NCBI GenBank assembly: GCA_905182785.1
Contig: CAJJDF010000044.1
Span: 1 to 43,983 of the forward strand
Origin: an uncultured Flavobacteriales bacterium
Lineage (GTDB): Bacteria; Bacteroidota; Bacteroidia; Flavobacteriales_D; CAJJDF01
Direction: 5' to 3'
Length of the DNA: 43,983 nucleotides
In this document: piece by piece, positions 1 to 43,314 of the stretch
Layout of the letters: each line of letters begins with the position of its first letter
Position numbering within the stretch: position 1 is the stretch's first letter
Notes under the pieces: generated by a model
What the model saw: only the letters and a program-made list of their open reading frames with translations
The model's database searches: none
What the model was told of the DNA's origin: nothing
Program-made: the position numbers and the translations under genes

Positions 1-1082
1 GAGATAATTGTACTTTTAGAGTTTTTTCCTAAGTGAATCATTTTAGTCCCAGTGTCAGCCATTTGGTGATTATTGGTAACTGCAATAGAATAAAATTCAC
101 CTATAGATGAGTCTCCTTTAAGAATACAAGAAGGATATTTCCAAGTAATTGCTGAACCAGTTTCTACTTGTGTCCAAGAGATTTTTGATTTGTAACCTTC
201 ACAAAGCCCTCTTTTTGTAACAAAGTTAAAGATACCTCCTTTTCCGTTTTTATCACCAGGATACCAGTTTTGTACTGTAGAGTATTTTATTTCAGCTCCA
301 GCCAATGAAACTAACTCAACAACTGCAGCATGCAATTGATTCTCGTCTCTCATTGGTGCAGTACAACCTTCCAAGTAACTTACATGGCTTTCTTCGTCAG
401 CAATCAATAAAGTTCTTTCAAACTGTCCTGTATTGGCTTCGTTTATTCTAAAATAAGTAGATAATTCCATAGGACATCTTACACCTTTTGGGATGTAGCA
501 AAAAGATCCATCGGTAAATACGGCTGAATTTAGTGCTGCATAAAAATTATCACCTTGAGGAACAACTGTTCCTAAATATTTTTTAACTAATTCTGGATGA
601 TTTTGAACAGCATCACTAAATGAGCCAAAAATAATTCCTAGTTCTCCTAGTTTTTCTTTGAATGAAGTAGCAACAGAAACAGAATCCATTACAAAATCCA
701 CTGCAACTCCTTGTAATTTTTTTTGTTCATCCATAGAAATTCCAAGCTTATCCATAGTAGCTTTTATTTCAGGATCAATGTCTTCCCAATTTTTTTCTTC
801 TTTTGAAGGTGATGAATAATAAATAATATCCTGAAAATCTGGTTTTTCATATTTAACATGAGCCCAATCTGGCTCCTTCATATTTTTCCATATTTCAAAT
901 GACTTCAATCTAAAATCAAGAAGCCATTCTGGCTCATTTTTTTTACTAGAAATTAATCGAATAATATCCTCATTCAGTCCTTTTGGAATTTTTTCAGATT
1001 TTACATCCGTAGTAAATCCAAACTCATATTCTTGAGTTTTTAAATCTTCCTTTAAATCGTCTTCTGTATACTTAGTATTCAT
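1..1082 (-). CDS. sufB: SufB, Fe-S cluster assembly scaffold subunit (3' part outside window)
   Basis: SufB is the scaffold subunit of the cytosolic SufBCD complex that builds iron-sulfur clusters. Reading the minus strand from the ATG at 1082 gives 360 codons open to the window edge; family members are about 480 residues, so the C-terminal quarter, including the SufD-interacting end, is missing. Recognisable stretches are the N-terminal [18 protein letters not shown], the [11 protein letters not shown] segment, the [20 protein letters not shown] block and the [20 protein letters not shown] block, which are typical of SufB rather than SufD. The start lies 20 bases after the stop of the SufA-like gene, so the two are very probably co-transcribed. 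In related bacteria sufC and sufD follow; that would place them beyond coordinate 1. Confident. Confidence 0.96.
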
Positions 1083-1102
1083 TGTTGTTGCTTTAAAAAA
1101 AA

Positions 1103-1426
1103 TTAAAGAGAAAAACTTTCACCACATCCACAAGTTCTATCCGCATTAGGGTTTGAAAATACAAATCCTTTTCCGTTCAATCCTCCAGAAAAATCTAGTT
1201 CGGTTCCAAGTAGGTATAAATAACTCTTTTTATCTACTACCACTTTTATTCCATTATCTTCTATCACTTTATCAGTATCGGTAATTTGATTGTCAAAATC
1301 AAGTTCATACATTAAACCAGAACATCCTCCTCCCTTAACTCCAACACGGATAAAGTGATTAATTTGCCCTTCGTCTTCCATCAGTCGAATTGCTTGTTTT
1401 TTTGCGTTATCACTAACTTTAATCAT
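1103..1426 (-). CDS. HesB/IscA/SufA-family iron-sulfur cluster carrier
   Basis: A 107-residue A-type carrier that receives Fe-S clusters from the SufBCD scaffold and passes them to apoproteins. The three family cysteines are visible: Cys35 in [11 protein letters not shown] and Cys99/Cys101 in the C-terminal CGCGESF motif. An upstream in-frame start would add eleven residues (MLCRIIINNNT) but would lie inside the -7 promoter element at 1457-1464, so [10 protein letters not shown] at 1426 is chosen; that start also fits the family length. It is the first gene of the suf operon here, followed after 20 bases by sufB. Whether it should be named SufA or ErpA cannot be settled from sequence alone, but the position next to sufB favours a Suf role. 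Confidence 0.93.
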
Positions 1427-1456
1427 GGTGTTATTATTTATAATAATTCTACATAA

Positions 1457-1464
1457 CAAAAATA
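1457..1464 (-). promoter_or_regulatory. Candidate -7 promoter element of the suf operon
   Basis: On the minus strand this reads TATTTTTG, an exact match to the Bacteroidota -7 consensus TAnnTTTG. Initiation a few bases downstream would leave a leader of about 25 bases before the ATG at 1426. No clear TTTG -33 element was found at the usual spacing, so the call rests on the -7 match and its position. Confidence 0.45.
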
Positions 1465-1539
1465 GATAAAAAACTATCGCTTGTAAAGGAAAGAAGGGTT
1501 TATTTTTAATTAATCTAAATAACGATTTTAGTTATTTTT

Positions 1540-3114
1540 CTAAAATTTGAAACCAATGAATTCAACATTTTGTTCTTTCGTTATTTTACTCAAATTTTTA
1601 TTTTTTAATTTCGATTCTGCCCAAGCTAAACAATCAAAATACTCGAAAGGAATATTTTCATATGTGTTTTTCGTTTCGGAATTTAGGATTGAAACTAGAT
1701 TTTCTAATTGTTCTTCTAGGTCATACTTATCAAAATTGTAACCACTGACTTTTTGGATAAATTTCAAAACAATAGTTTCGTATTCAAATAGCTTATTCCT
1801 TGTTTTAAGAAATCGTTTAGTAGATTTTATAGTGTAATTTACTAATTCTTTATTGTCTAATTCCAAATGAATAAAGAGATTGAGGATTTCTGCAAAGGAA
1901 TAAATTTCTTGTGCTTTATCAATATCAATGTCATTCAAAAGTGAGTTCGTCCATTTAAGCGATTCATTAAATTTATCTTGCACAAAAAGAATATGTGCCA
2001 TGTTATAATACAAAAAGGCTAATCTGGATTCGTTTATTTCTTGCTTATTATCTTCAATAAATTCGCTAATTATAGGTGATATTTTATCAAACCTCTTAAA
2101 ATTACAAGTCAGTTTTACGAGTAATAATTCTAAGCTTAGCAAGCTTGATTTAATTTTCAACACTAAATCTTTACTGCCATTTTCTTCATGAGTTTTGTTT
2201 AGGATCTTTAGTTTATTGTAAAGTTTTTGGGCTTTATCAATGTCTGAGTTTTTCATTGATAAGTATACACCGTTTGTAAGCGTAGAAATCAAAATGTTTG
2301 GCTCGTCAGTAAATTCATTTGGATTTTCTTCAATCAGTTTTATTGTTTTTAATACAGATTTTAAGCTACTTGCATAATCATATATGGCAAAGCAATAGGC
2401 TCCTTGAATGTGATTGAATAAATAATGTAATCCAATTTTGTTTTCAGGTATCTGAATTTCGTTAAGTTTTTTTCCAATTTCATTTTTAAGTAGTTCAACT
2501 TCTTTGTTTGTTCTCGCTCTTCCAATTTTATTTAATTGCTGAAACAACAATGCCTTTAGTCGCCAAAGCTCTGATTTTATTGTTAAGTTTTTAAGGATAT
2601 CTTGTTCTTCATTGCTTAAAATCTCTATTTTTTGTGAATCTACCGATTGATAGTTGTCTTTCTCTATCAAACTTTTTTCCCAAAGTATTAACTCTGCTAA
2701 GAGATGATTTTTATTGTACTTAACGGCTTGTTTCTTTGCAGAAAGAATTCTTTTTTTACATTGTTTGTAAAGAGATTTATTAAACAGAATCTCAATGTAA
2801 TGTAATTCGTTTCTAATTAATTGATCTTTTGATTTTTCAGAATAATAAGCATCTAAACTTTTCAAAATAGTATCATATAACCTAGCCTTCGTAATAGAAA
2901 ATTTATTTGTAAAGGCTTTACCTTTTAGTTTCTCTAGTAATTCTTCCTCGTCATAAAAATCCATTTTTTCTATTAAATCAAATAATATTTGCGCATTATT
3001 TGGAGAAGAAGTGGAGGAGGTGTGCCTAGCGACAAACAATTTAAAATATCTCTTTTCGGCCTTAGTTAAAGACTTAATTAATTGAAATATATGATTAGAG
3101 TATTTGTTTGCCAT
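1540..3114 (-). CDS. Helical-repeat (TPR-like) protein of unknown function
   Basis: A 524-residue cytoplasmic protein without signal peptide or membrane segment. It is almost entirely predicted helix, rich in Leu, Lys, Glu and Asn, with pairs of amphipathic helices such as FLYYNMAHILFVQDKFNESLKW that resemble degenerate tetratricopeptide repeats in the second half. The N-terminus, with LIKSLTKAEKRYFKLFVARH, is of a type I recognise in uncharacterised Bacteroidota proteins. No catalytic motif is visible. It stands alone, with a terminator upstream at 3154-3183 that separates it from the lipoprotein gene and about 110 bases between its end and the suf operon. A scaffolding or regulatory binding role is possible but not shown. 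Confidence 0.85.
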   Translation of the reverse strand: MANKYSNHIFQLIKSLTKAEKRYFKLFVARHTSSTSSPNNAQILFDLIEKMDFYDEEELLEKLKGKAFTNKFSITKARLYDTILKSLDAYYSEKSKDQLIRNELHYIEILFNKSLYKQCKKRILSAKKQAVKYNKNHLLAELILWEKSLIEKDNYQSVDSQKIEILSNEEQDILKNLTIKSELWRLKALLFQQLNKIGRARTNKEVELLKNEIGKKLNEIQIPENKIGLHYLFNHIQGAYCFAIYDYASSLKSVLKTIKLIEENPNEFTDEPNILISTLTNGVYLSMKNSDIDKAQKLYNKLKILNKTHEENGSKDLVLKIKSSLLSLELLLVKLTCNFKRFDKISPIISEFIEDNKQEINESRLAFLYYNMAHILFVQDKFNESLKWTNSLLNDIDIDKAQEIYSFAEILNLFIHLELDNKELVNYTIKSTKRFLKTRNKLFEYETIVLKFIQKVSGYNFDKYDLEEQLENLVSILNSETKNTYENIPFEYFDCLAWAESKLKNKNLSKITKEQNVEFIGFKF

Positions 3115-3153
3115 TCTTTTTTGGTATTGGTTTAAAAAATATTGAGCATAAAA

Positions 3154-3183
3154 AAAACCATCTCGTAATTACGAGATGGTTTT
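3154..3183 (-). terminator. Intrinsic terminator after the lipoprotein gene
   Basis: A perfect 30-base palindrome whose core TCTCGTAATTACGAGA is flanked by AAAACCA and TGGTTTT, followed on the minus strand by a run of T (plus-strand A run 3151-3157). It lies 17 bases past the stop of the 3201-3440 gene and before the next minus-strand gene, so it ends that transcript. Confidence 0.85.
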
Positions 3184-3200
3184 AATAGTTAATTTTAAAT

Positions 3201-3440
3201 TTAGTTTTTAGCTTTTTTGTTTGTTTTTTCTTTGTCTTCTTTTTCTGGGTCGGTAATATCAACATCACCAGACACATCATCAATCAAGTCATCATCACTT
3301 ATTACAATTGGCCCTATGGGACCAGTAATTTGAGAAGATTCCAGTGTATCAGAAGAAATTATATGGCTAAGAGGTTGTTCTTTTGAGCAACTAAACAGCA
3401 ATACAATGGCTAAAAATCCTATGTAAATTATTTTTTTCAT
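3201..3440 (-). CDS. Small acidic lipoprotein, function unknown
   Basis: A 79-residue precursor with a lipoprotein signal peptide: MKK, a hydrophobic core (IIYIGFLAIVLLF) and a lipobox LLFSC with the acylated Cys at residue 18, followed by SKEQ. The mature part is about 60 residues, contains an ITGPIGPIVIS segment and an Asp-rich stretch, and ends in a Lys/Glu tail. It has no recognisable domain and is probably unstructured. It has its own terminator (3154-3183) and sits about 85 bases after tonB on the same strand. Its location is expected to be the periplasmic face of the inner or outer membrane. Confidence 0.7.
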   Translation of the reverse strand: MKKIIYIGFLAIVLLFSCSKEQPLSHIISSDTLESSQITGPIGPIVISDDDLIDDVSGDVDITDPEKEDKEKTNKKAKN

Positions 3441-3524
3441 CTTGTTATCTAATACTAATATACGAAATTTCGTTTAAAATACTCCAACAAGAGTTGCTAA
3501 TTATTTAATGGTATTATTTTTAGT

Positions 3525-7047: not shown

Positions 7048-7548
7048 GTGATAAAAGCAAAAGTAAATCAATCGGAATTTGATGTAGAAATAGTCTCAGA
7101 AACAGAGATAAAACTAAATTCTGAGTCCAATCAATTGGATGTAATCTCGTTGTCGAATTCTAAAAAACATTTAATCTTGGGTAATAAATCCTATAGCATT
7201 GAATATGTATCTTTTGATAAAGAGAAAAAAGAAGCTGTATTGAAAGTGAATAACAGTACTTACAAAGTAGCACTTAAAGATAAATACGACTTACTACTTA
7301 AAGATTTGGGGATGAGCAGCATGGCTACTAAAGTAGTGAAAGAAATAAAAGCACCAATGCCAGGTCTTGTAGTTTCTATTGAAGTAGAGAAGGGGCAAAG
7401 TGTAAAAGTTGGGGATGCTGTTTTGATTTTAGAAGCAATGAAAATGGAGAATGTTATAAAATCTCCTATTGACGGAGTTATAAAATCGATTAAAGCAGAA
7501 AAATCAACTACAGTCGATAAAAATACAATATTAGTCGAATTTGAATAA
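7048..7548 (+). CDS. Biotin carboxyl carrier protein of an acyl-CoA carboxylase
   Basis: A 166-residue carrier subunit. The C-terminal half (about residues 98-166) is a biotinyl domain with the site LEAMKMENV (biotinylated Lys132), preceded by the family signature IKAPMPGLVVSIEVEKGQ and followed by SPIDGVIKSI. The N-terminal 85 residues are the beta-rich region seen in carriers of propionyl-CoA or acetyl-CoA carboxylase complexes. The start is GTG at 7048; a TGA three bases further upstream in frame excludes a longer form and there is no early ATG. The biotin carboxylase and carboxyltransferase genes are not in the window, so the substrate cannot be fixed. It is followed after 16 bases by the YceI-like gene. 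Confidence 0.9.
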   Translation: MIKAKVNQSEFDVEIVSETEIKLNSESNQLDVISLSNSKKHLILGNKSYSIEYVSFDKEKKEAVLKVNNSTYKVALKDKYDLLLKDLGMSSMATKVVKEIKAPMPGLVVSIEVEKGQSVKVGDAVLILEAMKMENVIKSPIDGVIKSIKAEKSTTVDKNTILVEFE

Positions 7549-7564
7549 TAAAAATAAATAAATT

Positions 7565-8191
7565 ATGAGGAAGTTACAATTAGGAGTTATTACAGTGTTT
7601 ATTGGGCTTATGTCCTGTGGAGAAGAGAAAGTGGAAGCAGTTAAAAGTGGTTTTGACGAAGTAAAGTATCAAATTGATGCAGAATCTATTTCATTGGATT
7701 TTATGGCGTACAAAACAACTGGAAAAATAGGAGTTGGAGGGGAGTTTGGTAAAATAAATGTTACTGCATCAGAGCTTGCTGATGTAAAAGAAAAAGCACT
7801 AAACAATGTTTCTTTCTCTGTTCCGATTTCTAGTCTTTTTACAGGAAATAAATCAAGAGATTGGAAACTGGTAAACTTGTTTTTTGGTGTTATGGATAAA
7901 ACAGAGTTTCTTTCTGGAACTTTTCATTCTCACGAAGCAAACATGGAAGATGGTAAAGGAGTTATGGATTTAACAATGAATGGTAAAACAGTTGACTTAC
8001 CTTATAACTATTCACTTAAAGGTGACTCTATGTTTATTTCAACTACTCTTAATGTACTGGAGTGGGATGGGCAAGAAGCAATGGACTCATTGAATGAAGC
8101 TTGCTATGACCTGCATAAAGGAGCTGATGGAATAAGTAAAACTTGGAGCGAAGTAGATATTAAAGCTTCAGTAGTTATTGCAAAAAAGTAA
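7565..8191 (+). CDS. YceI-like lipoprotein
   Basis: A 208-residue precursor with lipobox GLMSCGEE (acylated Cys18). The mature protein has the eight-stranded YceI/lipocalin-like layout of polyisoprenoid-binding proteins, recognisable in YQIDAESISLDFMAYKTTGK near the start, the LNNVSFSVPISSL segment and the GVMDLTMNGKTVDLPYNYSL segment. This family binds long isoprenoid chains in the periplasm in characterised members; that ligand is inferred here from family membership only. The gene follows the biotin carrier gene by 16 bases and ends at a strong terminator (8210-8243). Confidence 0.85.
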   Translation: MRKLQLGVITVFIGLMSCGEEKVEAVKSGFDEVKYQIDAESISLDFMAYKTTGKIGVGGEFGKINVTASELADVKEKALNNVSFSVPISSLFTGNKSRDWKLVNLFFGVMDKTEFLSGTFHSHEANMEDGKGVMDLTMNGKTVDLPYNYSLKGDSMFISTTLNVLEWDGQEAMDSLNEACYDLHKGADGISKTWSEVDIKASVVIAKK

Positions 8192-8209
8192 TTTTTAATT
8201 AAATTTATT

Positions 8210-8243
8210 GCCATCAATCTTACTTTAGATTGATGGCTTTTTT
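8210..8243 (+). terminator. Strong intrinsic terminator between the YceI-like gene and tilS
   Basis: A perfect 11-bp stem GCCATCAATCT/AGATTGATGGC (8210-8220 and 8227-8237) with loop TACTTT and a six-T tail. It is only 10 bases upstream of the chosen tilS start codon, and another in-frame ATG (8233) lies inside its 3' arm. Confidence 0.9.
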
Positions 8244-8253
8244 ATATATTCTT

Positions 8254-9570
8254 ATGTTAGCTACACTTAAATTATCCTTAAAAGAAATAGAAGATTACCA
8301 AAACAAGAAATTTCTTCTTGCAATTAGTGGGGGAATAGATTCTATGGTTTTACTTTCTTTGTTTTCAGAATTGGGATTAAATTTTTCTGTTGCTCACTGT
8401 AATTTTAAATTAAGAGAAACAGAAGCTAACAAAGATCAAGATTTTGTAAAGCAAAGTGCAAGGGATAAAAAAGCTCATTTTTACACCATAGATTTTGATA
8501 CGCTAGCCTATAAGAAAGAGAATAAGCTCTCTACACAAATGGCAGCTAGAAAATTGAGGTACAACTGGTTTAATGAAATAAAAAAACAGCATAATTATGA
8601 TTACATAGTTACTGCACACCATTTGGATGATAATGTGGAAACTGTGTTGCTCAACTTAACAAGAGGGACAGGGATAAATGGAATTGTTGGAATGAAATCA
8701 GTCTCTAATTTTATATTTAGACCTTTACTCAAAATTTCAAAACAAAAAATTATAGAATTTTCGGATGAAAATAATGTAGATTTTAGAGAAGACCAAAGCA
8801 ATGAATCGAACGATTATAAAAGGAATAAAATAAGGAATCAAATTATGCCTTTGTTTCAAGAAATGAACCCTTCATTTACTGAAACGATGGGACAAAATAT
8901 AGAACATTTTGATTCGGTAAATTCAATTTACACTAAATTTGTAGAGAATCAATTGGGAGATTTTGTGATTAAAACACAAGGAGATTCTTTTTTTATAGAG
9001 ATTAAAAAAATCAAGAATAAAACACAAATTTCATATGAGTTCTTAAGCCGATTCAATTTTAATTATTCTCAAGTATTACAACTAAATTCTTCACTTATGG
9101 AAGGAAATAGTACAGGAAAATATTTTTACTCTTCTTCTCATAAATTATTAATAGACAGAAAGCAATTGATACTTTCTCCCAATTTAAATACTGATGAAGT
9201 GACAGTTGCAATAAATAAAATAGACAAATTTGTAACCTACCCTATACAACTCACGTTTAATGAAGTACCAAAAGAAGAATTTGAGTTAAAATTAGATAGT
9301 TCTCATGCATTTTTGGATGCAGATAAATTAAGGTATCCACTTCATTTGAGAGTCTGGAAAAAGGGAGATTCATTTAGTCCATTTGGTATGGTAGGCAAGA
9401 AAAAAATTAGTGATTACTTGATTGATGAAAAAATATCAAGAATCGAAAAGGAAAAAACCTATGTCCTTATTTCAAATGATGAAATAGTATGGTTAGTTGG
9501 ACAAAGAATAAGTGATAACTATAAGGTTTCTGCTGCCACAAATAAAGTATTGAATATTATTTTAAAGTAG
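8254..9570 (+). CDS. tilS: tRNA(Ile)-lysidine synthetase
   Basis: TilS attaches lysine to C34 of the AUA-decoding tRNA(Ile), using ATP. The 438-residue product has the N-terminal PP-loop ATPase signature SGGIDS (residues 25-30 in FLLAISGGIDSMVLL), the following VAHCNFKLR and AHHLDDNVET motifs, and the RPLL segment, then a long C-terminal tRNA-binding part ending with SPFGMVGKKKISDYLIDEKI, typical of full-length TilS. The ATG at 8254 is used because the alternatives at 8230 (TTG) and 8233 (ATG) lie in the arm of the preceding terminator. There is almost no room for a promoter between terminator and start, so expression probably depends on readthrough or on a promoter inside the upstream gene. 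It is followed after 4 bases by the next gene. Confidence 0.95.
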   Translation: MLATLKLSLKEIEDYQNKKFLLAISGGIDSMVLLSLFSELGLNFSVAHCNFKLRETEANKDQDFVKQSARDKKAHFYTIDFDTLAYKKENKLSTQMAARKLRYNWFNEIKKQHNYDYIVTAHHLDDNVETVLLNLTRGTGINGIVGMKSVSNFIFRPLLKISKQKIIEFSDENNVDFREDQSNESNDYKRNKIRNQIMPLFQEMNPSFTETMGQNIEHFDSVNSIYTKFVENQLGDFVIKTQGDSFFIEIKKIKNKTQISYEFLSRFNFNYSQVLQLNSSLMEGNSTGKYFYSSSHKLLIDRKQLILSPNLNTDEVTVAINKIDKFVTYPIQLTFNEVPKEEFELKLDSSHAFLDADKLRYPLHLRVWKKGDSFSPFGMVGKKKISDYLIDEKISRIEKEKTYVLISNDEIVWLVGQRISDNYKVSAATNKVLNIILK

Positions 9571-14122: not shown

Positions 14123-15472
14123 TTATTTGTTTATGAATTCTAAAACAGCTTTATACACATCATTTCCATTTGCCAGAAGCATAACAGTTAATAAAATTAA
14201 GATTCCAAACAGCTGTGCTTTTTCCATAAATTTATCGCTAGGAGGTCTTCCAGATATCATTTCATAAATCAAGAACATAGCATGTCCTCCATCCAATGCT
14301 GGTATAGGTAGAATGTTCATGAAAGCAAGAATTACAGATAAAAAAGCGGTTCTCGACCAAAATATTTTCCAATCCCATTCCGTTGGGAATATTTTTGCAA
14401 TTGTACCAAAACCGCCTACTTGTTTTAGTGCTTCTGTTTTAGTGAAAATTAATTGAAATTGTTTTATGTAGTCTTTTAATGTGTTATAGCCTAATCTCAT
14501 TCCTTCTGGCCATGATTGAGCAAAAGAATAATTTACGTGTGTTGGTTTAAATAGAGTTAATAATTCACGTGATTGTTGAAACCCTATTTTGTAAGAAGTA
14601 TCAAATTCTCCAGAAAATGGAATTATTTCATCTCCACGTTTTATTCTCATTTGAAAAGAGTCCACTTCATTTTCTTTAAATGAATTTAATGCTTTGATTA
14701 AGTTCTTGAATAACACAACATCTTTGTTATTTATAGATAAAATTCTGTCGCCACTTTTCAACCCAATTTTATTTCCTATAGAGTTTTCAATAACTGAATC
14801 AATACGGTTTGGGAATTGAGGAATAAAAGCAGGAATCTTATTCTTAAGCATAAAATCAATGGCTTGATCAGAGATTGTTACGTTCCTTATTTCTCCATTT
14901 CTTTCTATTTTAAAATTCTTTGATTGATTGATTAAAATGGATTTATTAATCTCACCTAAGTCATCAATTTTTTCACCTTCTACTTCCAGTATTTTATCCC
15001 CATTCATAAAAAAATCTTCGCCTTTTATTTCTTCAGCAAGTACTTCTATTCCATAGGTGTAATCTTCGTTTTTTACGTAATCCTTTCCCCAAAAATAAGC
15101 AACCATTGCGTATAAAAAAATGGCTAAAACTATATTGACAGAAACTCCTCCCAGCATCACAATTAGTCTTTGCCAAGCTGGTTTTGATCTAAATTCATAC
15201 GGTTTTGGTGGTAGTTTCATTTGCTCGGTATCCATAGATTCGTCTATCATCCCAGATATTTTCACGAATCCCCCAAGTGGTAACCAACCTATTCCGTATT
15301 CGGTATCTCCTTTCTTGAATTTGAATAAAGAAAACCAAGGATTGAAAAATAAATAAAACTTTTCTACTCTTATCTTGAACAAACGAGCAGGAATAAAATG
15401 ACCCAATTCGTGAAGAACGACAAGGATAGCAAGTGCTAAAATTAACTGTACGATTATGACAAATGTGCCCAT
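14123..15472 (-). CDS. rseP: RseP-type site-2 membrane metalloprotease
   Basis: A 449-residue intramembrane zinc protease (peptidase family M50B) that in characterised bacteria cuts anti-sigma factors within the membrane and clears signal-peptide remnants. The zinc motif HELGH is at residues 21-25 in the first membrane helix, the second-site motif PALDGGHAMFLIYE is near residue 395, and between them are the GGFVKI turn and a periplasmic region with two PDZ-like segments (LEVEGEKIDDL and KSGDRILSINNKD). The gene follows dxr by 28 bases, a common bacterial arrangement, and is followed after four bases by the small membrane protein. Its anti-sigma substrate is not in the window. Confidence 0.95.
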   Translation of the reverse strand: MGTFVIIVQLILALAILVVLHELGHFIPARLFKIRVEKFYLFFNPWFSLFKFKKGDTEYGIGWLPLGGFVKISGMIDESMDTEQMKLPPKPYEFRSKPAWQRLIVMLGGVSVNIVLAIFLYAMVAYFWGKDYVKNEDYTYGIEVLAEEIKGEDFFMNGDKILEVEGEKIDDLGEINKSILINQSKNFKIERNGEIRNVTISDQAIDFMLKNKIPAFIPQFPNRIDSVIENSIGNKIGLKSGDRILSINNKDVVLFKNLIKALNSFKENEVDSFQMRIKRGDEIIPFSGEFDTSYKIGFQQSRELLTLFKPTHVNYSFAQSWPEGMRLGYNTLKDYIKQFQLIFTKTEALKQVGGFGTIAKIFPTEWDWKIFWSRTAFLSVILAFMNILPIPALDGGHAMFLIYEMISGRPPSDKFMEKAQLFGILILLTVMLLANGNDVYKAVLEFINK

Positions 15473-16701: not shown

Positions 16702-18195
16702 TTACGAAAGAATCTCCTCCATCAATTTTCTGTCGTTACTTAGTCTAGGAATTTTGTTTTGTCCACCTAGTTTTCCTTTCGTTTTTAACCAACTATCGAA
16801 TGTGTTTTTAGGTAAAACATGCAATACAGGATTTTCCAAAATCAATATTCTTTTTGCTTCGTAATCGGAATTTAAGCTTTTTAATGTTTCATCCAAAACG
16901 GCAATAAACTCTTGGTTATTTTGCGGAGGATTGACAAATTCTATAGCCCATTCGTGGGCTCCTTTTTCTTTACCTAATATATATATTGGAGCAACCGTAT
17001 ATTCTTTGAAACTAGCTCCAGTTCTTTCGCAGGCTTTGGTAATGGCAATGTCGGTATTTTCAATAATTAACTCTTCTCCAAACGCATTAATAAAATGCTT
17101 GGTACGTCCCGTTACTTTTATCTTGAAAGGGGATAGGGAAGTGAATTTGACTGTGTCGCCTACCAAATATCTCCATAAACCTCCGTTTGTTGAAATCACC
17201 AAAGCATAGTTTTTATTCAATTCTACTTCTTCTAAGCTTATTGCATTGGAATTGGTTCCATCGAATTCATTCATAGGAATAAACTCGTAAAATATTCCGT
17301 AATCAAGCATTAGCAACATATCATCAGTTTTGTTTTCGTTTTGTAACGAAAAAAAACCTTCCGAAGCATTATAAGTTTGGTAGTAATTTAGTTTCTTAGA
17401 GTTTATTATAGAATCAAATTGTGGTTTGTACGGATCAAAATTTACACCTCCGTGCATATACAATTCAAGGTTTGGCCATATTTCATTGATGGTTTTTCCT
17501 TCGGCAACTTCTATTATTTTATTCAATAAAACTAGCATCCAAGAAGGAACACCTGCAATAATTTTCACATCTTCTTTGAGAGAGGATTCAGCCATTTTCA
17601 GGATTTTTTCTTCCCAATTTTCCATCAAGGTTATTTGCCTGTTGGGAGTTCTTCTTATCTCTGCCCAAAACGGTAAATTCTTTACAATGATAGCCGATAA
17701 ATCACCAAAATAACTCCCTTCATTTAGTTGATTAACGGAAGTGTTTCCTCCAAGGATTAAATGTTTTCCAGAGAATAATTTTGCTCCGGGATTATTGTGG
17801 TAATAAATACTCAATAAATCTTTTCCTCCTTTATAATGGCAATCTTGAATGGCTTCTTGGGTTACCGGAATCAGTTTGCTTTTGGCATTTGTAGTTCCAG
17901 AAGATTTAGAAAACCACTGTGTTTTTCCTGGCCACAAGATATTTTCTTCTCCAGCTATAGATTTTTCTATATAGGGAAATATATCTTCGTATGTGTGAAG
18001 CGGAATGTTATTTTTGAATTCTCGGTAACTGGGAGTAGTTGCGAATCCGTATTGTTTTCCAAATTCGGTTTCTTTGGCTCTATCCAACAAAGAATCCCAT
18101 ACGCCATTTTGGGTGATAATGGGATTGAATGTAAAATGCTCTATTTGGTCTATTCTTTTCTTTATAATCCAAGAAAAAATAGTGTCAAAAGGCAT
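16702..18195 (-). CDS. GH3-family acyl-adenylating enzyme
   Basis: A 497-residue protein of the GH3 family, whose plant members adenylate hormone carboxylates and join them to amino acids. The three adenylation motifs are visible: SSGTTNAKSK at residues 98-107, YNASEG in the middle, and YLVGDTVKF followed by KVTGRTKHFINAFGEEL near the start of the C-terminal lid. The N-terminus (DTIFSWIIKKRIDQIEHF) is typical of Bacteroidota members. The bacterial acid substrate is unknown; a link with acyl or isoprenoid metabolism cannot be inferred from dxr being next to it. It lies 46 bases before dxr and probably belongs to the same transcript. Confidence 0.92.
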   Translation of the reverse strand: MPFDTIFSWIIKKRIDQIEHFTFNPIITQNGVWDSLLDRAKETEFGKQYGFATTPSYREFKNNIPLHTYEDIFPYIEKSIAGEENILWPGKTQWFSKSSGTTNAKSKLIPVTQEAIQDCHYKGGKDLLSIYYHNNPGAKLFSGKHLILGGNTSVNQLNEGSYFGDLSAIIVKNLPFWAEIRRTPNRQITLMENWEEKILKMAESSLKEDVKIIAGVPSWMLVLLNKIIEVAEGKTINEIWPNLELYMHGGVNFDPYKPQFDSIINSKKLNYYQTYNASEGFFSLQNENKTDDMLLMLDYGIFYEFIPMNEFDGTNSNAISLEEVELNKNYALVISTNGGLWRYLVGDTVKFTSLSPFKIKVTGRTKHFINAFGEELIIENTDIAITKACERTGASFKEYTVAPIYILGKEKGAHEWAIEFVNPPQNNQEFIAVLDETLKSLNSDYEAKRILILENPVLHVLPKNTFDSWLKTKGKLGGQNKIPRLSNDRKLMEEILS

Positions 18196-18244
18196 AGAAA
18201 TAAGATTTTACTCAATTAATAGGTTTTTAACCGCCCATTTATTT

Positions 18245-18340
18245 TTATCCAAAAATAAGGTAAGCTACAATCCCTAATGCTAGAGCTGTATAGATGTAAC
18301 CTATTGTAGCTGAGTTTTCGTGAAAATAGTTATCAGACAT
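18245..18340 (-). CDS. Possible 31-residue single-helix membrane peptide
   Basis: A short frame reading MSDNYFHENSATIGYIYTAL followed by ALGIVAYLIFG. It has a polar N-terminus and one hydrophobic helix ending at the C-terminus. It fills the gap between the Bax-inhibitor-1 gene and the GH3 gene, 49 bases before the latter and on the same strand. Composition looks protein-like, but the frame is short enough to arise by chance, and conservation cannot be tested here. Confidence 0.4.
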   Translation of the reverse strand: MSDNYFHENSATIGYIYTALALGIVAYLIFG

Positions 18341-18394
18341 TGTGTTTGTTTTTTTGTAAAAGTAATACTTATTTGAGAGATGACAAAACTAAAA

Positions 18395-19123
18395 TCAATC
18401 TCTCCCACCAATTAATCTCAATAAAAATAAGAATAGATTAATGAAGTCTAGGTACAAGGTTAATGCTCCATAAACAGCTCTTTTTTGAGTTGATGCTGTT
18501 CCGATTTCTGAGCCTTCTCCAATTCTTTTTAATTTTTGAACATCATAAGCTGTTAGTCCAGTAAAGATTACTACACCCAATACACTTATTACGTAACTCA
18601 TGAAGCTGCTCTGCATAAAGAAATTAACGACCATAGCAATTACTATCCCTATTAATCCAATATACAAAATGTTTCCTAGCTTGGTTAAATCTGTGGTGGT
18701 TGTATATCCTACAACAGCCATTATTGCAAAAACGGAAGAAGCAGAGAAGAAGGCAGAATAGATATCTCCCAAGTTGTAACGAATGAATAGTGTACTAAAA
18801 CTTATTCCCATTAATAAGGCAAATGAAATAAATAAAATAAGCATACTTGGAGCACTTAGCCTGTTATATCCTAAGGACATAGCGAAAACAAAACCCAATG
18901 GGGCAAAAGCTGCAATATAATACAAAGGATAAACTGACCCCGTAGTAAAATTTATTAAATACTCTCCAACTAAACCTGAAGTATGGAAATACCAAGCTAT
19001 AAATCCTGTGATGAATAACCCGACAAACATATAGGTAAAAACTTTAGCCATAAATGACTTCGCTAATGATTGCTCATAAACCCCAGAGTCTATACTTTGC
19101 TGAAAGTTGTTTGTTTCTCTCAT
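18395..19123 (-). CDS. Bax inhibitor-1/YccA family membrane protein
   Basis: A 242-residue integral membrane protein with about seven hydrophobic segments. The family is recognised from the N-terminal SLAKSFMAKVFTYMFVGLFI, the FAPLGFVFAMSL segment and the late GLTAYDVQKLKRIGEGSEIG, which carries the conserved YD pair, then TQKRAVYGALTLYLDFINLF. Bacterial members (YbhL, YccA, BsYetJ) act as pH-sensitive calcium leak channels or as modulators of the FtsH protease; which applies is unknown. It is 25 bases after folE and probably ends the M23-merR-PTPS-folE transcript. Confidence 0.93.
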   Translation of the reverse strand: MRETNNFQQSIDSGVYEQSLAKSFMAKVFTYMFVGLFITGFIAWYFHTSGLVGEYLINFTTGSVYPLYYIAAFAPLGFVFAMSLGYNRLSAPSMLILFISFALLMGISFSTLFIRYNLGDIYSAFFSASSVFAIMAVVGYTTTTDLTKLGNILYIGLIGIVIAMVVNFFMQSSFMSYVISVLGVVIFTGLTAYDVQKLKRIGEGSEIGTASTQKRAVYGALTLYLDFINLFLFLLRLIGGRD

Positions 19124-41276: not shown

Positions 41277-41585
41277 CTATTTGAAATTATCATTAAAAGA
41301 CCTCATGATTTTATCATTCGGTGATGAAAATAGAGCAAAAATGTTATCCGCATTCGCAGTTGATTTTAATGATATAGTAATCCCGTGGTCTGTTTTTGCT
41401 AGTCCAATATCTAAAGAGCCAACCGCAAAAAAGTTGTTGAATTTTGCGTTCAATTGATTAATGCTGTCATTTTGTTCAATCTTTTTAAAGCCACCAGCTT
41501 CTAAAGCAGACTTACATTTAATTTTTGCTTCTACTAATGTTCCATTAAATTGAAGACTTTTCTCTTTACTTTTTCTAATTGCCAT
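41277..41585 (-). CDS. Orphan 102-residue soluble protein
   Basis: A small basic protein without signal peptide or membrane segment. It reads as helix (LVEAKIKCKSALEAGGFKKI), then beta strands (NQLNAKFNNFFAVGSLDIGL, HGITISLKSTANADNIFALF) and a C-terminal helix with NDKIMRSFNDNF. This alpha-beta pattern resembles small proteins of unknown function seen singly in many bacteria; I cannot name a family. The gene lies between a half-palindrome and a complete palindrome, both with GTT ends, as expected for a mobile cassette. Confidence 0.65.
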   Translation of the reverse strand: MAIRKSKEKSLQFNGTLVEAKIKCKSALEAGGFKKIEQNDSINQLNAKFNNFFAVGSLDIGLAKTDHGITISLKSTANADNIFALFSSPNDKIMRSFNDNFK

Positions 41586-41606
41586 AACTTTTTAAGTTTT
41601 AATTAA

Positions 41607-41660
41607 GACTAACAGTAAATGTAAAGGGCGTTTTAATGCCCTTTACATAATGTTGTGGGC
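41607..41660 (-). repeat. attC-like palindrome 1
   Basis: A perfect 11-bp stem ATGTAAAGGGC/GCCCTTTACAT (41619-41629 and 41638-41648, 8-base loop). On the plus strand it is bracketed by GACTAAC on the left (AAC 41611-41613, 5-base spacer) and GTTGTGGGC on the right (GTT 41652-41654, 3-base spacer). Read on the minus strand this is AAC-stem-GTT, the layout of an integron attC site. It overlaps the 16-bp GTTGTGGGCTGGTTTT that runs into the stop codon of the next gene. There is no T run, so a classical terminator is unlikely. The outer heptamers do not fit RYYYAAC/GTTRRRY exactly. Confidence 0.5.
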
Positions 41661-41665
41661 TGGTT

Positions 41666-41959
41666 TTATTCAATGATTTCCCATTGCATATTTTCACCAT
41701 CATAAATAACTTTTACAGTATACTTGAATTTTTCTCCTTCTTCATTTGTTTCAAGTATCCCACTGTATTCATTTCCTCCTTTATGGGCGAGAAGGAAGCT
41801 TTCAATTTTTATTCCTGTAATACCCTCTTTTTCCCAAGTTTCGTTCATACTTACTTTTACTTCTTCAGCTAATTCATTTGTTGATAAGCTACAAGAGGTA
41901 GCAAAAAATAACATCAATATAAATACACCTTTGCTAAGATTTTTGATAATTTTTTTCAT
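41666..41959 (-). CDS. Small orphan lipoprotein
   Basis: A 97-residue precursor with signal peptide and lipobox (KGVFILMLFFATSCSLS, acylated Cys23). The mature 75 residues are an acidic alpha/beta domain: a helix (ELAEEVKVSMNETWEKE), then strands GIKIESFLLAHKGGNEYSGI, KFKYTVKVIYDG and MQWEIIE. The layout resembles small secreted domains with a helix packed on a sheet, but no family is certain. The start is 12 bases from repeat copy A; palindrome 1 follows the stop. Confidence 0.7.
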   Translation of the reverse strand: MKKIIKNLSKGVFILMLFFATSCSLSTNELAEEVKVSMNETWEKEGITGIKIESFLLAHKGGNEYSGILETNEEGEKFKYTVKVIYDGENMQWEIIE

Positions 41960-41971
41960 TTTTTCCTCTGT

Positions 41972-42047
41972 TTTAAATTTTCCTACTCTTAAGGTTTTTC
42001 AGAATGCACCCCGTTTTTTTAGTGGTTGCTGGTCTCCACTTTTGTCT
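41972..42047 (-). repeat. 76-bp repeat, copy A
   Basis: Aligns without gaps to copy B at 43063-43138, with 63 of 76 bases identical by hand count; the first 17 bases (TTTAAATTTTCCTACTC) are the same. It lies 12 bases upstream of the 41666-41959 gene start. In one minus-strand frame both copies encode DKS..Q..LKK.G.F and a stop, so they may be remnants of the end of a coding sequence or a shared leader. Confidence 0.75.
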
Positions 42048-42133
42048 GTCAATTTCACAAAATATTTTTTTTAAGAACTATCAAAATTATCCTTTGGTGG
42101 TTATCTTGTCTGTTTCATTCCTGTATATCGTTT

Positions 42134-42269
42134 TTTCAACGTTTTGCAAATAGGCGCAGGCAGGGATTTTAACCACTAAACTTCCTACGAAGAACGTAGC
42201 TTTAAATTCACCACTTTCCTTGCTTACGAAACACGAAAACCCTGCTTGCGCTTATTTGTGGTTATGGGC
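42134..42269 (-). repeat. attC-like palindrome 2 (long, with inner hairpin)
   Basis: Outer arms CAAATAGGCGCAGGCAGGG (42147-42165) and CCCTGCTTGCGCTTATTTG (42240-42258) pair over 19 positions, 17 as Watson-Crick and two as G-T wobble when the plus strand folds. Inside is a second hairpin CTACG/CGTAG (42185-42189 and 42195-42199). On the plus strand the element is bracketed by AAC (42138-42140, 6-base spacer) and GTT (42261-42263, 2-base spacer). GTTATGGGCTGGTTTT (42261-42276) nearly repeats the sequence at palindrome 1 and again lies just before a minus-strand stop codon. Size and asymmetry resemble integron attC sites. Confidence 0.55.
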
Positions 42270-42281
42270 TGGTTTTGAATA

Positions 42282-43052
42282 TTAATTTTCTTCTCTCTTT
42301 CTAATTGCAAGTGGAATAGCAAATTTTGGTAAAAATGAGATTAGATTAGTTACCAGTTTCAAAATGTAATTATAGATTTCTTTGTATATATAAAATGCGA
42401 TAAGCAAAAGAAAAGCTCCAGCAATACTCATAACACCTATTTTCATATATTCTCCAAAATTTTCATAATCACCAAAAATTTGTTGAGGAGCCAACCCACT
42501 AAACACCTCCATTCCTGGAAAAATACTTAATAATAATGTAGGATATTCACTTAATGGCGCATATACAAAAGAGCCCACTAAGGTCGCAATGATTTGGAGT
42601 ATTCCCGCATATAAAAATAGAATAAACAGTAATTCACCTATCACTAAAATTAATTTCGGTAAAGTTTTTACAAAAATAAAGGACAATAGATAATCATATT
42701 CGATGACTTTCATTTGCTCTGTTCGCTTTTTTAAAACACTAAATAAAGCCCAAGCAGTTAAAATGCTAATTGCAAAACCAAGGATTAGGCCAACAACAGC
42801 ACCTGCTTTTTTACCACCACTTAAATAATCGTTTGAAATGTAGCTTTTTACAAAGCCAGAATCTCCAAACAATCCATCAAAGCTTAGATAAATTCCGCCT
42901 AGCAGAAGTCCAATTGCTAATACGGTAAGTAAAAGAATAATAATGTTTTTAAAAACATTTCCATCATCCAGTTTTCCTAAAAAAGGAATAACTAATTTGT
43001 TGTAACCTTTATCAGCTACTGATAATGATACAAAAGGTAAATTTTTTTCCAT
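42282..43052 (-). CDS. Orphan multi-pass membrane protein
   Basis: A 256-residue protein with four convincing membrane segments: about 35-57 (NIIILLLTVLAIGLLLGGIY), 84-106 (AGAVVGLILGFAISILTAWA), 130-160 (TLPKLILVIGELLFILFLYA and following) and 208-226 (IGVMSIAGAFLLLIAFYIYK). A hydrophilic region follows the first helix and a basic tail (AIRKREEN) ends it. No transport or enzyme signature was recognised. The start is 10 bases from repeat copy B and the stop is directly followed by palindrome 2, the same arrangement as the lipoprotein gene to its left. Confidence 0.7.
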   Translation of the reverse strand: MEKNLPFVSLSVADKGYNKLVIPFLGKLDDGNVFKNIIILLLTVLAIGLLLGGIYLSFDGLFGDSGFVKSYISNDYLSGGKKAGAVVGLILGFAISILTAWALFSVLKKRTEQMKVIEYDYLLSFIFVKTLPKLILVIGELLFILFLYAGILQIIATLVGSFVYAPLSEYPTLLLSIFPGMEVFSGLAPQQIFGDYENFGEYMKIGVMSIAGAFLLLIAFYIYKEIYNYILKLVTNLISFLPKFAIPLAIRKREEN

Positions 43053-43062
43053 TGTCTATAAA

Positions 43063-43138
43063 TTTAAATTTTCCTACTCATATGGCTTTTCAGAATACGC
43101 CCCATTTTTTAAGTGATATCTGGCCTTCACTTTTATCT
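43063..43138 (-). repeat. 76-bp repeat, copy B
   Basis: Ungapped partner of copy A (41972-42047). It lies 10 bases upstream of the 42282-43052 start. Most differences from copy A are transitions. The gap 43053-43696 that contains it otherwise holds an isolated plus-strand promoter, a terminator-like hairpin and no convincing gene. Confidence 0.75.
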
Positions 43139-43279
43139 TATTTTATTTTCCTAATCATGTCAGTTCTTTTTTTTATTGCACCTACACTAAACCCAGAACG
43201 GTTGATATAAAAGAAACTTAGTGCAGACAATAAGTACTATATTTAAGTTTATTACCTAGTTAAATATAAACATTTTATT

Positions 43280-43314
43280 TTTGTTTTCTTCTTAAAGGAA
43301 AAAATTTATATTTG
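43280..43314 (+). promoter_or_regulatory. Isolated plus-strand promoter in a gene-free gap
   Basis: TTTG at 43280-43283, a 23-base spacer and TATATTTG at 43307-43314 (exact TAnnTTTG). This is the same spacing as the uvrC promoter. No annotated gene lies downstream on this strand within the window; the first ATG is at 43330. Confidence 0.45.

Follow-up and report, generated by a model that had tools for sequence, protein, structure and literature searches.

Gene content and palindromes of the locus

The window (the whole 43,983-nt stretch analyzed, from an uncultured Flavobacteriales bacterium) includes two palindromes that separate three minus-strand genes. In the direction of transcription, these encode a 256-aa putative membrane protein (42282 to 43052; no Pfam or PADLOC family), a 97-aa lipoprotein-like protein with an N-terminal signal and a Cys (41666 to 41959; no Pfam family), and a 102-aa protein (41277 to 41585; no Pfam family). 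The long palindrome (42138 to 42263, plus strand) follows the first gene, and the short palindrome (41611 to 41654, plus strand) follows the second, each coming immediately past the stop codon. Each of the first two genes is led by a minus-strand DUF805 RNA (RF03081), at 43067 to 43135 (77.2 bits) and 41976 to 42044 (80.8 bits), against a gathering threshold of 51.1 bits. Based on the GTT break-points described below, we infer that the cassette carrying the 97-aa gene spans 41613 to 42139 on the minus strand, starting just past the G in one R' GTT and ending with the G in the following one, and that the 256-aa gene with its RNA belongs to the preceding cassette. The cassette genes lie on the minus strand, so the plus strand corresponds to the “bottom” strand.

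Read on the plus strand, the short palindrome has exactly the order that was originally predicted for it: AAC (41611 to 41613), a 5-nt spacer (AGTAA), a stem arm (ATGTAAAGGGC, 41619 to 41629), an 8-nt loop (GTTTTAAT), the second arm (GCCCTTTACAT, 41638 to 41648), a 3-nt spacer (AAT), and GTT (41652 to 41654). The 11-bp stem is perfect, the element scores 13.0, and after GTT the sequence continues as GTGGGCTGGTTTT up to 41667. Of 60 first-order Markov windows, 1 contained a perfect hairpin with the same geometry, and the RNA folding z score of the element is −3.9.

The GTT and the adjoining R''-side flank form a 16-bp tail (41652 to 41667, plus strand) that abuts the stop codon of the upstream gene, and a second copy (GTTATGGGCTGGTTTT, 42261 to 42276, plus strand) lies in the long palindrome. 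The original prediction took this tail to be common to both palindromes and to sit in both cases at a minus-strand stop codon. Both palindromes do carry it, with one mismatch between the copies, but only one stop codon touches the tail and the other lies 6 nt beyond. We saw neither a third copy nor any tail copy lacking a palindrome in the 2.32-Mb genome, where the sole other place within two mismatches has no GTT and is at chance level. As had been noted, the two spacers sum to eight in both elements (5 + 3 and 6 + 2); the 5 + 3 split that was also claimed for the long palindrome had to be revised to 6 + 2, or to 5 + 1 with one extra G.T pair. Three other sites of this genome (G000:C36:63761, C37:240, and C38:70246) have another R''-side tail in common, GTTGRCAAATCGTT, which suggests that cassettes fall into tail families.

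A homologue of the 97-aa protein (54% identical) is cassette borne in genome G163 (contig C6). That cassette is complete and lies behind an attI-like sequence, with a common 5' region, a DUF805 RNA, the gene, and a site. After the gene it reads ..ATTGAATAAAACCTGCCAATAAC, followed by a 107.7-bit site; at the corresponding point, the window cassette reads ..ATTGAATAAAACCAGCCCACAAC, followed by the short palindrome. The two cassettes align end to end, with the full-size site in place of the small palindrome, and the flank GAATAAAACC[AT]GCC[CA]AYAAC is common to the short-site tail and the G163 cassette. Because G163 has its 107.7-bit site there, the short palindrome occupies the attC position of the cassette. 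Successive cassettes headed by DUF805 RNAs occur in the window as well as in the homologous array of G163 (L235/L227), and a further copy lies in another array locus (L048, 9158 to 9227); this RNA may be a frequent cargo of cassettes or may serve as their leader.

A family of covarying attC-like sites

The long palindrome is bounded by AAC and GTT and has a 25-bp stem and a terminal structure of ~60 nt. BLAST recovered relatives at ≤90% identity from many families, in 50 of the 399 genomes of the order; none came from the window's own genus or family, where weaker sites matching a covariance model (R1, below) do occur. In gene direction, family members consist of a stop codon, ..RCCTATAAC, a short spacer, a stem arm, ~60 nt, the second stem arm, AAAAC or GAACC, and GTTATRGGC.., and the next gene is mostly on the same strand. 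No Rfam family matched the elements in an Rfam search.

In a 32-site set (A2), the AAC and GTT ends are invariant. As in attC sites, these ends flank an imperfect inverted repeat that can fold as a single strand. The stems nonetheless change in a compensated manner, with 59 double-changed pair cells versus 20 in shuffles among 28 sites collected by BLAST only, and 222 versus 81 in the A2 set, which was partly chosen with a complementarity/hairpin scanner and is biased to pairing. This retention of the ends while the stems of the long palindrome's relatives covary makes the originally proposed structure-recognized recombination site the best-supported reading. The two strands also differ: the strand opposite the genes carries a conserved G.T pair (A.C on the gene strand) in 30 of 32 and 28 of 28 sites of the two sets, and it folds more stably in 27 of the 32 when DNA parameters are used. 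Extrahelical bases like those of the attC L arm, where they give strand choice, were not found among the 20 contiguous pairs, which have no conserved bulge.

The R1 model was built from the A2 elements, themselves partly selected for pairing, and scored the long palindrome at 107.1 bits (E = 1.2e-23). With no more than 8 matches scored per genome, R1 sites were found in 251 of the 399 genomes, the majority of those sampled from this large order. The window's own genome has 14, of which 13 exceed 30 bits, and they cluster on contigs C34, C38, and C67. A weak match (6.5 bits, with AACGGTT) lies upstream of the first DUF805 cassette of the window, at 43190 to 43292 (plus strand), and is possibly a decayed site closing the preceding cassette.

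On the plus strand, R1 ranks the short palindrome second to the long site, although with only 13.9 bits (E = 0.014 in 4 kb, 41604 to 41661). Its 5 + 3 spacing is common to other sites of this genome, and it agrees with the attC-like family in spacer geometry, in its position after a stop codon, and in the flank CCWGCC.AYAAC. It begins with AACA, however, and the G after AAC is invariant in all 32 reference sites; on the gene strand, TTACT precedes GTT where the family has AAAAC or GAACC. Because the element departs from the invariant base and also resembles a terminator, its own activity is uncertain.

Arrays, attI-like motif, and cassette boundaries

The sites separate same-strand genes and form arrays of a single orientation in which each unit consists of one or more genes and a site, as in integron arrays. 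Many loci have an attI-like motif, TATAAAYAAGTTA, ~60 to 170 bp after the stop codon of a tyrosine recombinase gene, and a variable cassette start comes next. Within 200 bp after the gene, the motif followed 31 of 79 recombinases in a mostly Bacteroidota set versus 27 of 1,621 other open reading frames (p = 8e-29), and 1 of 31 recombinases of other phyla. This placement is what would be expected of an attI-like site beside the recombinase gene of an integron.

Break-points indicate where exchange would take place. The complete genome G007 has a tandem-duplicated cassette (98.7% identity) whose copies diverge right after GTTA, and in all four matching gene-plus-site pairs, identity stops 0 or +1 nt from GTT. 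These boundaries point to cassette exchange at the GTT of the R' box and, together with the location of the long palindrome's relatives in arrays next to a tyrosine recombinase, bear out the recombination-site reading. Among the cargo are a toxin-antitoxin pair, a D12 methyltransferase, and numerous proteins that belong to no family. The toxin-antitoxin cassette (L235, 4317 to 5103) has an HTH antitoxin and a Gp49/HigB-like toxin followed by a site, as in large chromosomal integrons.

A linked family of tyrosine recombinases

No IntI scored over the TIGR02249 cutoff in the 399 genomes of the order, and it is weaker tyrosine recombinases that adjoin the sites. We found 78 R1 matches in 40 recombinase loci (454 kb) and none in 18 control regions (342 kb, seven of the same genomes). 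Nine of the 40 loci (L047 to L055) owe their selection to nearby elements and are left out of the unbiased evidence; where recombinase score was the only criterion, 6 of 19 loci had sites, versus 0 of the 18 controls (p = 0.02). All 76 tabulated elements are on the recombinase strand, downstream of the gene. A second, independent set comprised 80 loci from named genomes, fetched by recombinase alignment, and ∼69 of 76 elements in it were placed likewise. The order of recombinase and then array was repeated in 19 Bacteroidota loci of that set, including those of Flavobacterium enshiense DK69, F. aciduliphilum DSM 25663, Algoriphagus ornithinivorans DSM 15282, Algibacter onchidii, and Winogradskyella ursingii. 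Exceptions are L165, L168, and a distant L162 site, which are upstream and in the opposite sense; in L165 and L168, related recombinases with divergent upstream sites have the classical integron layout. Named loci of other phyla had no R1 sites, except that a Calditrichia MAG gave two weak matches.

All of the catalytic residues (R, K, H-x-x-R, H, and Y) are conserved in these recombinases. In an alignment, the columns of the IntI-specific insert are empty in 47 of 47 linked recombinases and filled in 12 of 12 canonical IntI proteins, and a quick tree places the linked recombinases on a separate branch, not within IntI. The tree also includes 40 recombinases of the Bacteroidota set without a detected site, many of them at contig ends; in draft genomes, many arrays are cut off at contig edges. 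We found no recombinase of the linked family in the window's own genome. Within the L056 array, two shorter recombinase genes (14326 to 15225 and 17964 to 18863) come right after sites, as if they were cassette cargo, and a Flavo-1 RNA (RF01705; L139, 9847 to 9925, minus strand) adjoins the Algibacter onchidii recombinase gene.

Often, the recombinases have a HARP-like N-terminal domain. That of the L065 recombinase exceeds the Pfam HARP cutoff (PF07443), the only one of seven recombinases scanned to do so. Its predicted structure has a pLDDT of 87.6, and the top PDB match in a Foldseek search was the HARP domain of SMARCAL1 (4o66), followed by XPB, with weak E values (0.04). HARP domains bind forked DNA. 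By analogy, the HARP-like domain could bind the folded site.

Interpretation and alternative explanations

Taken together, these patterns point to integron-like gene capture, widespread among Flavobacteriales and their relatives in Bacteroidota, with a recombinase of a different kind from that of known integrons. The cassette of the window would comprise the DUF805 RNA leader, the 97-aa gene, and a site. If exchange proceeds as in integrons, the strand opposite the genes would extrude as a hairpin, a tyrosine recombinase would recognize the folded structure, exchange would occur at GTT, and the excised gene and site could be reinserted either into a further site of this type or into the attI-like site that adjoins the recombinase gene. 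For the short palindrome itself, positional and geometric evidence supports a role as a site, and we conclude that it is probably an attC-like site, either minimal or decayed, at the close of a mobile cassette of this Bacteroidota system.

A rival view holds that the short palindrome is just an intrinsic, possibly bidirectional, terminator of the gene at 41666 to 41959 that has replaced or overlies a lost attC-like site, so that only the long palindrome recombines. The element does fit the terminator pattern of a G+C-containing hairpin and then a T run after a gene: its perfect 11-bp stem and 8-nt loop are followed by a T-rich tail on the minus strand directly past the stop codon, it was listed by a terminator scan, and its RNA fold is strong. 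A terminator, however, needs neither AAC and GTT brackets at 5 + 3 nt nor a tail in common with a neighboring recombination site, and the palindrome lies precisely where a homologous cassette has its attC-like site. We consider a terminator without a site unlikely, and the two roles are not exclusive; both may be true.

The other alternatives concern the family as a whole. Could the elements be canonical attC sites of an ordinary integron whose IntI was missed by the profile? The AAC/GTT core logic, the cassettes, and the attI-like site are the same, IntI occurs elsewhere in the phylum (in 93 of 345 genomes, almost all of them from classes other than the window's), and R1 gives weak matches beside canonical Bacteroidota IntI (∼15 to 31 bits in L216, L222, and L224, and 38 to 68 bits in L214). 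This explanation is nevertheless very improbable, being already contradicted as to the integrase: the TIGR02249 search found no IntI over the cutoff in the order, the linked recombinases branch apart and uniformly lack the insert, the sites have a conserved G.T pair rather than an extrahelical base, and the recombinase mostly runs toward the array. Hardly credible is the proposal that transposases have dispersed the elements as REP- or MITE-like hairpin repeats. They are palindromic, repeated, and patchily distributed, as such repeats are, but they form tandem arrays on the recombinase strand with same-strand genes on either side, the gene moves with the element, and the break at GTT is on one side.

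Returning to the integron-like system, our judgment is evenly balanced as to whether it represents a second, separately evolved kind of integron. Such an integron would have an XerA-like recombinase, often fused to a HARP-like domain in place of the IntI insert, would capture cassettes via folded single-strand sites, and would supply a mobile gene pool to Flavobacteriales and other Bacteroidia, in which canonical IntI is almost never present. Because surveys for integrons are directed at IntI and its special insert, a gene-capture system of this type could have gone unnoticed. If it works as proposed, the IntI insert is dispensable for single-strand hairpin recombination, the HARP-like domain would be a second solution for recognizing folded sites, and many orphan genes and DUF805 RNA leaders would be explained as cassette cargo.

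Comparison with known systems

Our literature search found no description of this combination of integrase and site; subscription journals and preprints were outside its scope. A close database entry is the NCBIfam model NF040815, an XerA-type “site-specific tyrosine recombinase/integron integrase,” against which the linked recombinases score 204 to 237 bits (cutoff, 220). Its name is an annotation and does not include the linkage to arrays, the attI-like site, or the HARP-like domain. The HARP domain (PF07443), known from SMARCAL1 (4o66), is here fused to a tyrosine recombinase. DUF805 RNA (RF03081) is found here within two successive cassettes, where two full-score copies lead the cassette genes, and likewise in the G163 array.

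The sites of the window's own genome are CALIN-like. In a CALIN, attC sites are clustered but no integrase is present (PMC8618304, PMC9668308), and the own-genome clusters resemble this arrangement in having at least two sites <4 kb apart (484 bp in the window, three sites in 3.2 kb on C34) and no cognate recombinase. They differ from CALINs in that the sites were assigned by the R1 model and not by IntI or attC recognition software.

Canonical arrays of the phylum offer a further comparison. When canonical IntI arrays were scanned for hairpins in general, little turned up. R1 weakly matches some of these arrays, so their sites and those described here may be related. In L214, four R1 sites (834 to 3511) in one orientation lie upstream of a canonical IntI gene (7209 to 8330); at 38 to 68 bits, they stand apart from the weak matches of the other canonical loci.

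Integrons (IntI/attI/attC) are the closest known system overall, with tandem single-direction cassettes, AAC/GTT hairpin sites, a GTT exchange point, and an attI-like site next to the recombinase. The differences lie in both partners. The sites have a conserved G.T wobble and no extrahelical bases, in contrast to attC, and the recombinase, unlike IntI, lacks the insert described as essential for integron function (PMC8138268), falls on a separate branch, and often carries the HARP-like N-terminal domain. The direction of the recombinase gene has a counterpart among integrons: in Treponema, intI runs in the direction of the cassettes (PMC3607928), just as the recombinases described here point toward their arrays.
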